From: Microbacterium sp. MYb62
GTDB taxonomy: Bacteria > Actinomycetota > Actinomycetes > Actinomycetales > Microbacteriaceae
NCBI RefSeq assembly: GCF_002979475.1
Contig: NZ_PCOY01000001.1
Span: 310,001-374,000 of the forward strand
DNA: 64,000 bases
Direction of reading: 5' to 3'
The notes beneath the pieces were generated by a model. The model was not told where the DNA came from. It was given only the letters and a program-made list of their open reading frames with translations, and ran no database searches. Of this stretch, positions 29,298-51,663 are shown one piece after another. How positions within the stretch are numbered: position 1 is the stretch's first letter; each line of letters begins with the position of its first letter. Both the position numbers and the translations under genes were made by a program.

Positions 29298-30449
29298 TCA
29301 GACCGTGACGACCTGGGCGGTGCCGAGCGGAGCCTCAGGGCCCATGTCGGCGGCGATCCGGTTGGCCTCCTCGATCAGCGTCGCGACGATGTCCGCCTCG
29401 GGCACGGTCTTGATGACCTCGCCCTTCACGAAGATCTGTCCCTTGCCGTTGCCCGACGCGACGCCGAGGTCGGCCTCACGAGCCTCACCCGGTCCGTTCA
29501 CGACGCAACCCATCACGGCGACCCGCAACGGGACGGTCATGTCCTTGAGACCTTCGGTGACGTTCTCGGCCAGCGTGTAGACGTCGACCTGGGCGCGACC
29601 GCACGACGGACACGAGACGATCTCGAGCTTGCGCTCCCGCAGGTTGAGCGACTGCAGGATCTGGTGCCCGACCTTGACCTCTTCGGCGGGCGGGGCGGAG
29701 AGCGAGACGCGGATCGTGTCGCCGATGCCCTCGCCGAGCAGGATGCCGAAGGCCGTGGCGCTCTTGATGGTGCCCTGGAACGCCGGTCCCGCCTCCGTCA
29801 CCCCGAGGTGCAGGGGCCAGTCGCCTCGCTCCGCCAGCAGACGGTAGGCCTTGACCATCACGATGGGGTCGTTGTGCTTGACGGAGATCTTGAAGTCGTG
29901 GAAGTCGTGCTCCTCGAACAGCGACGCCTCCCAGACGGCGCTCTCGACCAGCGCCTCCGCCGTGGCCTTGCCGTGCTTGGTGAGGATGCGGCGATCCAAC
30001 GATCCGGCGTTGACGCCGATGCGCAACGAGACGCCGGCGGCCTTGGCCGCCTCCGCGATCTTGCCGACGTTGCCGTCGAACTCGCGGATGTTGCCCGGGT
30101 TCACCCGGACCGCCCCGCAGCCCGCATCGATCGCGGTGTAGATGTAGCGCGGCTGGAAGTGGATGTCGGCGATGACCGGGATCTGGCTCTTCATGGCGAT
30201 GATCTTCAGCGCGTCGGCGTCGTCCTGATGCGGCACCGCGACGCGCACGATCTCGCATCCCGACGCCGTGAGCTCGGCGATCTGCTGCAGCGTCCCGTTG
30301 ATGTCGGTCGTCTTCGTCGTCGTCATCGACTGCACGCTGACGGGGGCGTCGCCGCCCACGAGCACCTTGCCCACCTTGATCTGGCGGGACTTGCGGCGCG
30401 GGGCGAGGACTTCGGGGATCTTCGGCATTCCGAGGTTCACTGCTGGCAC
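29298..30449 (-). CDS. ispG: 4-hydroxy-3-methylbut-2-enyl diphosphate synthase (flavodoxin)
   Basis: Penultimate step of the MEP isoprenoid pathway. The 383 residues match family length: N-terminal TIM barrel ([27 protein letters not shown]) and a C-terminal 4Fe-4S domain with CPSCGR and GCVVNGPGE. The GTG start follows TAGGCT-GGGGGC directly, so the mRNA is probably leaderless. In many actinobacteria dxr, a site-2 protease and ispG are adjacent; here inserts separate all three. Confidence 0.97.
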
Positions 30450-30461
30450 GCCCCCAGCCTA
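30450..30461 (-). promoter_or_regulatory. -10 box of the leaderless ispG promoter
   Basis: TAGGCT (30461-30456) then GGGGGC and the GTG at 30449. It is divergent from the trp leader promoter. Confidence 0.5.
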
Positions 30462-30532
30462 CGCCGCCAGGATGCGTGAGGGCTGGATGCCGGGCCTCGC
30501 GTCACGCGCCCGAAGCGACACCGCCGGTGTGG

Positions 30533-30544
30533 TAGTTTCGGCGC
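30533..30544 (+). promoter_or_regulatory. -10 box of the trp leader promoter
   Basis: TAGTTT at 30533-30538 followed by CGGCGC and the leader peptide ATG at 30545, so the leader RNA should begin at the A of the start codon. Confidence 0.55.
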
Positions 30545-30580
30545 ATGCTCGCGAACTTCACCTGGTGGCCCGCCTTCTAG
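30545..30580 (+). CDS. trpL: trp leader peptide MLANFTWWPAF
   Basis: Eleven codons with tandem Trp codons at positions 7-8 (30563-30568), followed by TAG. It lies just before an attenuator and a fused anthranilate synthase gene. Ribosome stalling at the Trp codons when charged tRNA-Trp is scarce would favour the antiterminator. There is no ribosome site; a -10 box six bases upstream indicates leaderless translation. Confidence 0.85.
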   Translation: MLANFTWWPAF

Positions 30581-30631
30581 GCGGTGTGTTCGCGTTCCCA
30601 CGAATCCAGACCGCCTCCGGGGCGGTCTTTT
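30570..30631 (+). promoter_or_regulatory. Transcription attenuator of the anthranilate synthase gene
   Basis: Pause hairpin: CCGCC (30570-30574) with GGCGG (30580-30584). Antiterminator: GGCGGT (30580-30585) with ACCGCC (30610-30615). Terminator: AGACCGCC (30608-30615) with GGCGGTCT (30621-30628), followed by a T-run. The mutually exclusive pairing and the Trp-rich leader are those of classical trp attenuation. Confidence 0.85.
30608..30631 (+). terminator. trp attenuator terminator hairpin
   Basis: An 8-bp GC-rich stem with a 5-base loop and TTTT at its end; the only hairpin in the window with a U-tract, as expected for a regulated terminator. Confidence 0.82.
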
Positions 30632-30668
30632 CGTTGCGCCGAGCCGGAGCACTGCACAGGAGACATCC

Positions 30669-32552
30669 ATGACCCTCTCACGCCTCGCCGAGCTCAGCAC
30701 CGACCCGACGGCATCCTTCGTGCTGATCGCGCGCGACGGCGCGGACACCGTCGAGCTGCTCAGCGGCGACGTCGTCGACGTCGATCTGCTCGCGGACATT
30801 CCGCTGAGCATCGACGGCACGCCGCGCGAGGTCTTCGCGATGGTCCCCTATCGCCAAGTGCGCGAGCGCGGATTCGTCGCCCAGGACGACGGCGCCCCGC
30901 TGCGCTGCGTGATCGTCGACGAGCATCTCGACCTGCCCACGTCCGAGCTCCTCGCCGCGCTTCCCGGCGACCCGGTCCCCCTGCATGACGACGGATTCGA
31001 CATCGCCGACGCGGAGTACGCCGCGATCGTCGAGAAGGTCATCGCCGAGGAGATCGGTCGCGGCGAAGGGGCGAACTTCGTCATCCGGCGTGACTTCACC
31101 GCGCGGATCGACGTCGATGACCGCACGGCCGCCCTCACGTGGTTCCGCGCGCTGCTCACGCACGAGCGCGGCGCCTACTGGACCTTCGCGGTCTTCACCC
31201 CCGGCCACATCGCCGTCGGCGCGAGCCCCGAGGCGCACGTGGTCGCCCGCGGAGGCGTCGTCACGATGAACCCGATCTCCGGAACCTTCCGCCATCCGGC
31301 CGGAGGCGCGACCAAGGAGACGCTGATCGACTTCCTCGCCTCTACCAAGGAGACCGAAGAGCTCTTCATGGTCGTGGACGAGGAGCTCAAAATGATGAGC
31401 GCGGTCTGCTCCGACGGCGGGCGGATCACCGGACCGCATCTGAAGGAGATGTCGCGGCTCACGCACACCGAGTACATGCTCCGCGGACGCAGCGCACTCG
31501 ACCCCCGCGACATCCTCCGCGAGACGATGTTCGCCCCCACGGTCACCGGATCGCCCATGCAGAACGCCTGTGCGGTCATCCGGCGTCACGAGCAGAAGCC
31601 CCGCGGCTACTATTCCGGCGTCGCCGCCCTGTTCACCCCGAACGACGACGGCGGCCACGACCTCGATGCACCGATCCTCATCCGCACGGTCTACGTCCAG
31701 GACGGCACGCTCCGCGTTCCGGTCGGGGCGACCCTGGTCCGCCACTCCGACCCACAGGGAGAGGTGTCGGAGACGCACGGGAAGGCCGCAGGCGTACTCG
31801 GCGCGATCGGCGCGATCGACCGCGACCGCGTCGCCGAGGCGCGCAGCGATGCCGACGCTCCGGGCGAGGCACGCGCCCTCGCGAACGATCCGGCGATCGC
31901 CGACCTGCTGTCCTCCCGCAACGCGCGACTGGCCGAGTTCTGGCTCAACCCGCAGGGCGAGGAGTTCACCGGACCCTTCGCGGGTCGGACCGCGCTCGTC
32001 GTGGACGCGGAAGACCGGTTCACGACGATGCTCGCCCACCAGCTCCGTCATCTCGGCCTCGCGGTGACGATCGCCCCCTGGGATGAGGTGCAGGACGCGG
32101 AGCTCGACGCAGCCGATCTGGTGGTCGCCGGTCCTGGTCCCGGAGACCCCCGCGACACGACCACTCCCCGCATCGCCCGGATGCGCGAGGTCGTCGCCCG
32201 CCGCCTGGATGCGCAGGCGCCGCTGCTCGCGGTGTGCCTCAGCCATCAGATCCTCGCCGACCGGTTCGGCATCGCACTTACGCCGCTCGATGCCCCGCAC
32301 CAGGGTCTGCAGAAGTCCGTGCCCGTGTTCGGGGAGGATGCCTCGATCGGCTTCTACAACACCTTCACCGCGCGGGTGGCGCCGGGGACCACGACTGCCG
32401 GAGCCGCGGAGATCTCCGCAGACCCGATCTCCGGCGACGTGTACGCCCTCCGCGGCAGGCACTTCGCCTCGGTGCAAGGGCATCTGGAGTCGATCCTGTC
32501 CCGCGACGGGATCCACACGCTCGAGCGCCTCGTCGCCCAGGCCCTCGCCTGA
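30669..32552 (+). CDS. Fused anthranilate synthase (PhzE-like, TrpE-TrpG fusion)
   Basis: Chorismate to anthranilate with ammonia from glutamine, the first step of tryptophan synthesis, if it acts as an anthranilate synthase. The 627 residues join a TrpE-type chorismate-binding half (1-about 420; EEIGRGEGANFVIRR, NPISGTFRHP, MVVDEELKMMSAVC) to a TrpG-type amidotransferase (about 440-627; nucleophile Cys in LAVCLSHQ). The closest recalled pattern is PhzE, which makes 2-amino-2-deoxyisochorismate. The Trp-controlled attenuator argues for a tryptophan role. The triad His/Glu motif reads HLES in place of HPES. AGGAGA stands before the ATG. Confidence 0.9.
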   Translation: MTLSRLAELSTDPTASFVLIARDGADTVELLSGDVVDVDLLADIPLSIDGTPREVFAMVPYRQVRERGFVAQDDGAPLRCVIVDEHLDLPTSELLAALPGDPVPLHDDGFDIADAEYAAIVEKVIAEEIGRGEGANFVIRRDFTARIDVDDRTAALTWFRALLTHERGAYWTFAVFTPGHIAVGASPEAHVVARGGVVTMNPISGTFRHPAGGATKETLIDFLASTKETEELFMVVDEELKMMSAVCSDGGRITGPHLKEMSRLTHTEYMLRGRSALDPRDILRETMFAPTVTGSPMQNACAVIRRHEQKPRGYYSGVAALFTPNDDGGHDLDAPILIRTVYVQDGTLRVPVGATLVRHSDPQGEVSETHGKAAGVLGAIGAIDRDRVAEARSDADAPGEARALANDPAIADLLSSRNARLAEFWLNPQGEEFTGPFAGRTALVVDAEDRFTTMLAHQLRHLGLAVTIAPWDEVQDAELDAADLVVAGPGPGDPRDTTTPRIARMREVVARRLDAQAPLLAVCLSHQILADRFGIALTPLDAPHQGLQKSVPVFGEDASIGFYNTFTARVAPGTTTAGAAEISADPISGDVYALRGRHFASVQGHLESILSRDGIHTLERLVAQALA

Positions 32553-50187: not shown

Positions 50188-51663
<1,476 letters not shown>

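Follow-up and report, generated by a model that had tools for sequence, protein, structure and literature searches.

The stretch of Microbacterium DNA analysed here (64,000 nucleotides in all, referred to below as the window) very probably carries, ahead of a fused anthranilate synthase gene, a ribosome-mediated attenuator whose leader open reading frame (ORF) is leaderless and, in addition, a helix at the 5' end of the RNA that we call the lock. It is the lock that appears to be new: bases within the first ~12 nucleotides (nt) of the RNA, often including the start codon, are predicted to pair with a strand between the stop codon of the leader and the terminator. The helix encloses the hairpin formed by strands 1 and 2 (1:2). 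The pairing between nt 6-12 and nt 44-50 is absent from the original prediction for this locus, which was made from the sequence; the parts that the prediction did name, tandem Trp codons, a pause hairpin, an antiterminator and a terminator, are all present in the sequence and its fold (Table 1). The ORF, the position of the -10 element, the helices, their conservation and the covariation of the lock come from sequence comparison, and from these we infer the start site, stalling, termination, read-through and the role of the lock.

In the mechanism that we propose, transcription would start at the A of the leader ATG (position 30545), as the position of the promoter element suggests, so that no 5' untranslated region (UTR) is expected, and a 70S ribosome would bind the RNA at its 5' end and translate the 11 codons. 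When Trp-tRNA is short, this ribosome would stall at the Trp codons, 7 and 8, and cover strand 1; strand 2 would then be free to pair with strand 3, and RNA polymerase would read into trpEG. When Trp is ample, the ribosome would reach the stop codon and cover strand 2, and the 3:4 terminator would form. Bases within the first ~12 nt would pair with nt 44-50 once these have emerged, giving a lock that is nested around 1:2 and that would form a topological pseudoknot with 2:3. Such a lock would close the loading site to ribosomes not yet bound, and would favour termination if the leader is untranslated.

Table 1. Features of the leader region and of the gene that follows it, in window positions; nt numbers count from the A of the leader ATG.
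Feature	Position	Strand	Details and basis
Extended -10 element, TGG TAGTTT (putative)	30530..30538	+	Hexamer 30533-30538, six bases before the ATG; sequence
Leader ORF, MLANFTWWPAF and stop	30545..30580	+	Sequence; tandem-Trp leader accepted in 75/80 relatives
Lock 5' strand, CGCGAAC, nt 6-12	30550..30556	+	Fold; covariation
Strand 1, CCGCC, nt 26-30	30570..30574	+	Within codons 9-10; fold, alignment
Strand 2, GGCGGT, nt 36-41	30580..30585	+	Begins at last base of stop codon; alignment
Lock 3' strand, GTTCGCG, nt 44-50	30588..30594	+	Fold; swapped-partner tests
Strand 3, terminator 5' arm	30608..30616	+	ACCGCC at 30610-30615 pairs with strand 2 (antiterminator)
Strand 4, terminator 3' arm (30620-30628), with U-tract (30628-30631)	30620..30631	+	Scan, alignment
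AGGAG, Shine-Dalgarno-like	30658..30662	+	Six bases before the ATG of the structural gene; sequence
Fused TrpE-TrpG type protein, 627 aa	30669..32552	+	Chorismate_bind then GATase; the attenuated gene

Conservation of the leader and its helices

The leader reads ATG CTC GCG AAC TTC ACC TGG TGG CCC GCC TTC TAG (36 bases), with its two Trp codons at 30563-30568, and sits between the divergent ispG gene (29298-30449, minus strand) and the fused TrpE-TrpG gene. Relatives were drawn from the best 80 of at least 577 confirmed matches to the downstream protein. The eleven best of those fetched are Microbacterium, 85-93% identical in this protein, and the placement of the DNA in the Microbacteriaceae was thus right. 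In 75 of the 80 loci we accepted a short ORF with tandem Trp codons, lying 120-304 bases ahead of the matched start; the loci not used either had too little upstream DNA (L030, L046), carried a WWW ORF further upstream (L071) or had no such ORF (L081, L082). Together with the window, the 75 accepted loci make up a set of 76 leaders. Where several in-frame starts were available, one was chosen manually when the -10 position was known for the window but had yet to be listed for the relatives.

A wider sample was taken across the class, in which 109 of 296 genomes have the fused gene at E 1e-60 or better. From 121 places, 113 upstream regions were fetched, the places left out being the window's own, one in a close Microbacterium, and six that were pieces or had late starts. 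A leader ORF, defined here by at least two Trp codons and a -10 element at -11 to -14 (so that only the 76-leader set tests the -10 spacing), is found in 74 of the 113 regions, across seven families. Of the rest, 33 have nothing and six have W-containing ORFs with no -10 element, which we judge to be chance. No recognisable Trp leader was found in any of the nine upstream regions of the fused gene in family f23, or in any of the 13 from genus g50 of family f33, implying that the control has been lost or replaced there. Nine genomes, seven in f25 and two in f24, have two fetched copies of the gene; in each of them the leader is found on one copy and is absent from the other, and the leader-free second copy may serve a secondary pathway.

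Alignment of the leader among its relatives, which the original prediction had put forward as a check, shows the leader to be conserved. The alignment, A1, holds 71 of the 76 leaders (65 distinct), the divergent L073, L075, L077, L079 and L080 being omitted. Over its 65 distinct rows, pairing is found in 87.7% of cells for 1:2, 95.3% for 2:3 and 94.5% for 3:4, with 65.8% for the extension of the antiterminator. For both structures, none of 500 shuffles reached the observed covariation score or the observed number of cells in which both sides have changed (32 and 14). Two stricter measures do not exceed the shuffles. The count of pairs that have changed on both sides was equalled or exceeded in 161 and 93 of 500 shuffles, and that of further pair types in 101 and 435. 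When the antiterminator register is slid by -1 its covariation is 0.104, compared with 0.101 for the true register, yet it pairs in only 47% of cells. The GGCGG/CCGCC core hardly varies, and much of the support for these helices is therefore conservation. In a subgroup of the Microbacterium-type leaders (L027, L031, L057, L032, L038, L039, L041, L043 and L047) the strand 3-4 insertion is longer and the U-tract weaker.

It is likewise conservation that carries the case for an attenuator. A terminator scan of 29500-31500 returned a single site, the hairpin at 30608-30628 with its short U-tract, TTTT at 30628-30631 (TTTTCGTTG); with 0.7 sites expected in shuffled sequence, this hairpin is not significant alone. 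The original prediction was mistaken in calling this the only U-tract of the window, since runs of at least four T occur at 30628, 51642, 55881 (five T) and 57414, with A-runs of 4 at four places. The T-runs at 51642, 55881 and 57414 are possible terminators in this GC-rich window. In a scripted scan, 68 of the 76 leaders showed a hairpin that resembles a terminator and is followed by a T-rich tail, although some of these, judging by their position, are probably chance. The fold of nt 1-92 has an energy of -39.9 kcal/mol (z -3.3), with two of 200 shuffles as good. The Rfam model Trp_leader (RF00513) matches over its full length at 30557-30635, with 28.5 bits and an E value of 4.5e-4 in a search of 251 bases; this is below its 41-bit gathering cut-off, and no Rfam match at gathering was found in the window. 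On the comparative evidence, attenuation controlled by the Trp codons is strongly supported.

The geometry of the leader fits the proposed switch. If a ribosome is assumed to cover 11 nt past the first base of its A-site codon, strand 2 stays free during a stall at the Trp codons and is covered once the ribosome has reached the stop codon. At the point where strand 4 is about to be transcribed, the upstream pairing of strand 3 averages 0.69 with a Trp stall, 0.29 with the ribosome at the stop codon and 0.29 with no ribosome, these means being taken over the 121 of 128 unique leaders that have a hairpin; it is higher with the Trp stall than at the stop codon in 109 of the 121. At equilibrium, 3:4 beats 2:3 even in the presence of a stalled ribosome (0.79 at nt 86), which implies that the switch has to work kinetically.

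Pairing of the RNA 5' end

What might the lock do? On paper it would be both a protector, such that no translation leads to termination, and a gate that closes the landing site of the ribosome. In the window, opening nt 1-15 for a ribosome costs 3.3 kcal/mol of free energy when 48 nt of RNA have emerged and 7.7 kcal/mol when 50 nt have; later the cost is 2.0 at nt 71, where 2:3 is competing, and 7.3 at nt 92. Over the 128 leaders the cost is 8.2 kcal/mol when the real loop is present, 5.6 when it is left out and 4.9 when it is shuffled, and it is higher with the real than with the shuffled loop in 114 of the 128, the exception being family f24 (10.9 vs 11.4). Accessibility of the start codon in the same leaders is 0.58, compared with 0.72 when loops are shuffled. 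The AUG of the window stays free (0.84 vs 0.80 shuffled), sitting in an unpaired overhang of five bases. Without a ribosome, the lock of the window is formed at 0.99 at nt 60 and at 0.06 at nt 74, where 2:3 wins, so that it could enforce termination only if refolding is slow. The gate is thus the stronger reading in the window, since at nt 74 the ribosome-free RNA favours 2:3 at equilibrium.

A more modest explanation, which we consider doubtful although it deserves serious weight, is that the lock is the lower part of a classical 1:2 protector hairpin and has no special role in leaderless initiation. Its nesting around 1:2 would be expected on this explanation, as would the outcome of blocking nt 1-12 in silico: of 121 leaders, 80 gain antiterminator pairing and 18 lose it, the mean going from 0.29 to 0.47, as a protector would require. 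In 75 of 128 leaders, however, the helix (at a score of at least 14 in the swap test described below) takes in one or more of nt 1-3, and this is the place where the ribosome must land. The cost of opening nt 1-15, 8.2 kcal/mol with the real loop, also argues for an effect on initiation, but the AUG of the window is itself unpaired. The protector role and the initiation role are compatible and do not exclude each other.

Pairing of the first RNA bases with a strand made later could limit the time during which a ribosome can load. We put forward tentatively, as a single proposal whose chances we place somewhat short of even, that the lock is a loading timer in the leaderless trp attenuators of several actinomycete families. 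The lock strand would be made ~35-45 nt later, only ribosomes that land before ~60 nt have been transcribed would count, and untranslated RNA would terminate by default. The lock would then replace the timing that the 5' UTR and Shine-Dalgarno site provide in E. coli, and the principle may be general for leaderless attenuators.

The other explanation to be weighed is that the pairing is not a selected helix at all, and arises simply as a by-product of shared ancestry and of the codons used (GCG, CGC). We regard this as unlikely, on the strength of tests in which partners were swapped between leaders. Here nt 1-14 were set against the stretch from stop codon to terminator, the best helix starting in the first six bases was scored, and the register was refitted for true and swapped partners alike. 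The sample comprised 128 unique leaders of 150, "Microbacterium" being the default label for named loci with no other label and including a few metagenome bins. The mean lock score is 17.50 for true partners, compared with 16.23 for swaps within families, 14.45 for global swaps and 11.49 for composition-shuffled loops, and none of 400 global swaps, and none of 400 within families, was as good as the true partners. A score of 18 is reached by 73 of the 128 true pairs, against 50.1 for within-family and 27.1 for global swaps. Swapped partners also pair well, as the by-product explanation would have it: a score of at least 14 is found for 100 of the 128 true pairs, and for means of 90.2 within-family and 74.8 global swaps.

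The families themselves differ. The number of swaps as good as the true partners, out of 400, is 0 in Microbacterium, 2 in f26 and 5 in f33; the within-family signal is weak in f25 (24) and absent in f24 (231) and Agromyces (271), where a score of 14 is reached by none of nine and three of seven leaders, respectively. A version of the test based on duplex energy, with a cruder loop, gave 0 of 1000 swaps as good for all leaders, for Microbacterium and for the within-family comparison overall. By this measure 20 of 1000 were as good in f26 and 65 in f33, and there was no signal in f25 (881/1000), f24 (674/1000) or Agromyces (619/1000). The silence of these last families fits a by-product, as does the pairing of the lock in alignment A1, where the fixed register of the window gives pairs in only 81.5% (2 pairs) and 69.8% (5 pairs) of cells.

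Several lines of evidence nevertheless point to a selected helix. Among 64 disjoint pairs of leaders that differ on both strands, paired as nearest neighbours by leader similarity and not derived from a tree, the true combination is better in 33, the crossed one in 11 and 20 are tied (p 0.0013), the ties being what a by-product would give. The same 64 pairs divide 35 to 13 by duplex energy (p 0.0021), and the 50 closest divide 22 to 9 (p 0.029), with only 5 to 2 within f25. A control stretch beyond the terminator gives no pairing signal, 60 and 200 of 300 swaps doing at least as well as the true partners, whereas for the loop, in the same comparison, again none of 300 swaps was as good. At the first position of the lock there are 12 A-T and 7 G-C pairs, in keeping with AUG and GUG starts. 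Examples are seen in Embleya (L073), where GTGATCGCGA pairs with TCGCGATCAC, and in family f26 (L114, L118, L124), where ATGTACGC pairs with GCGTACAT.

We also considered branched-chain leaders. Among 40 ilvB upstream regions (of 58 places listed), a leaderless branched-chain leader was found in only four, and with this sample, which is too small, 155, 267 and 126 of 300 lock swaps were as good. Candidate leaderless branched-chain leader ORFs lie upstream of ilvB in L210, L211, L212 and L222, for example MHHSILVVTKACAD.

The controlled gene and the start of its transcript

The protein downstream of the leader combines Chorismate_bind (133.4 bits) and GATase (77.7 bits) domains from Pfam in one chain. 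It is one of three Chorismate_bind proteins in the genome, and since the other two are PabB-like and isochorismate-synthase-like, exclusion leaves the fused gene as the anthranilate synthase gene, or at least as the only candidate for it found in the genome by sequence. Could it instead make 2-amino-2-deoxyisochorismate, in the manner of PhzE, for a secondary product, and not anthranilate for Trp? The nearest solved structure by sequence is 3r74 (E 1.3e-151), which we take to be PhzE, and no cut-off was reached among 25 of the 42 NCBIfam families. We nevertheless think this very unlikely, since the Trp-codon leader is conserved, since the genome, which has a completeness rating of 99.99% and contains trpD, trpB and trpA (on other contigs), yielded no other TrpE candidate, and since the nine two-copy genomes have the leader on one copy and none on the other. 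No W-rich small ORF with TANNNT before its start was found near the other chorismate-binding genes, the second GATase-like match or the hisG...trpB-trpA genes. A Shine-Dalgarno-like site is present before the structural gene and absent before the leader.

Evidence for the absence of a 5' UTR comes from the promoter element. In all 76 leaders a TANNNT hexamer is found at -12 (45 leaders) or -13 (31) from the start codon, and thus lies six or seven bases from it, and in none is there a second TANNNT within 45 bases upstream of the start. Further upstream the density of TANNNT is 12 per 15200 positions, a frequency at which fewer than one of the 76 leaders would have the hexamer at -12 or -13 by chance. 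The hexamer is preceded by TGN in 60 of the 76, and the best match to a -35 element averages 2.2 of 6 over the 76 leaders, compared with 2.0 in shuffles (2 of 6 in the window); together these fit an extended -10 promoter. A sigma-70 scan, which requires a -35, found no promoter. When both strands of the window were scanned for W-rich small ORFs (6-30 amino acids, ATG or GTG start, WW or at least two W), MLANFTWWPAF was the only one with TANNNT at most 14 bases before its start. Five Shine-Dalgarno-like tetramers were sought in the 25 bases that precede the start codon in each of the 76 leaders; they occur nine times, and seven of these occurrences lie between -21 and -25, at too great a distance from the start, the other two being closer. 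The leaderless start that the original prediction read from a -10 box six bases before the ATG is therefore strongly supported by comparison with relatives. A transcript that begins further upstream with an ordinary 5' UTR, the TANNNT being coincidental or minor, would suit the lack of a clear -35 element but is highly improbable, given the exact spacing in 76 of 76 leaders, the distance of the Shine-Dalgarno-like matches and the leaderless transcription of S. lividans trpL1 recorded by RNA-seq in the accessible text of its report (PMC8079986).

Microbacterium and other actinomycetes would thus join the organisms with leaderless trp attenuators (74 of the 113 upstream regions sampled), and the fused TrpEG is marked as the controlled step of Trp synthesis in Microbacterium. 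How a leaderless ORF is synchronised with RNA polymerase becomes testable in these leaders. The lock offers a defined helix with natural compensatory variants, such that breaking and restoring it should shift ribosome loading and read-through predictably.

Comparison with known attenuators

Strands 1-4, the tandem Trp codons and the opposition of terminator and antiterminator are shared with the E. coli trp leader and with RF00513. The E. coli leader has an ordinary 5' UTR and a Shine-Dalgarno site. The Microbacterium leader, in contrast, has no Shine-Dalgarno site and would have no 5' UTR, and its 5' end is drawn into a helix. A timing of initiation and stalling unlike that in E. coli, as the original prediction envisaged, is plausible on the basis of folding and covariation.

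Attenuation by Trp codons in a leaderless leader was already known, as the S. lividans case and earlier predictions indicate. Seliverstov et al. (2005; PMC1262725) predicted Trp attenuators in Corynebacterium and Streptomyces and, in the accessible text, refer to experimental work on S. venezuelae and C. glutamicum. For the trp attenuator of S. venezuelae, Lin, Paradkar and Vining (1998) are cited both there and in PMC4833913. The attenuators that they describe resemble those found here in their double or triple UGG codons, GC-rich terminators with U-tracts and complementary triples. According to its legend, their alignment, for the genera Corynebacterium and Streptomyces, spans the region from the Trp codons to the terminator; having begun at the Trp codons, it would leave the 5' end of the RNA outside (PMC1262725).

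The closest Trp counterpart is S. lividans trpL1 (MFAHSTRNWWWTAHPAAH), which, according to the part of the report available, is transcribed leaderless ahead of a monocistronic trpE (PMC8079986). It shares with the Microbacterium leader a leaderless ORF, tandem Trp codons, two hairpins and a uridine-rich stretch, but it has 18 residues and three Trp codons, compared with 11 residues and two Trp codons. Near-identical leaders occur in our class-wide sample (MFAHSTQNWWWTAHPAAH). Pairing of the RNA 5' end is not named in the accessible part of the trpL1 report, and no comparative evidence for the lock in trp leaders was found in the literature searched, which was mostly open-access.

The idea of a lock does, however, have a precedent in another system, the ilvBNC operon of C. 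glutamicum. There, as far as the accessible text of the 2025 report goes (PMC11857589), the transcription start is one nucleotide from the leader ATG, and a hairpin, H1, covers the landing site; the authors argue that H1 blocks leaderless initiation and functions as an anti-antiterminator. Its role was modelled, and according to the authors conservation could not tell H1 from H2 (PMC11857589). The ilvBNC attenuator responds to branched-chain amino acids, in contrast to the Trp control proposed here, and the lock of the Microbacterium type differs from H1 in being backed by swapped-partner tests. The two systems are alike in a pairing near the RNA 5' end, which among the trp leaders is conserved, though not in family f24 and only weakly in Agromyces.
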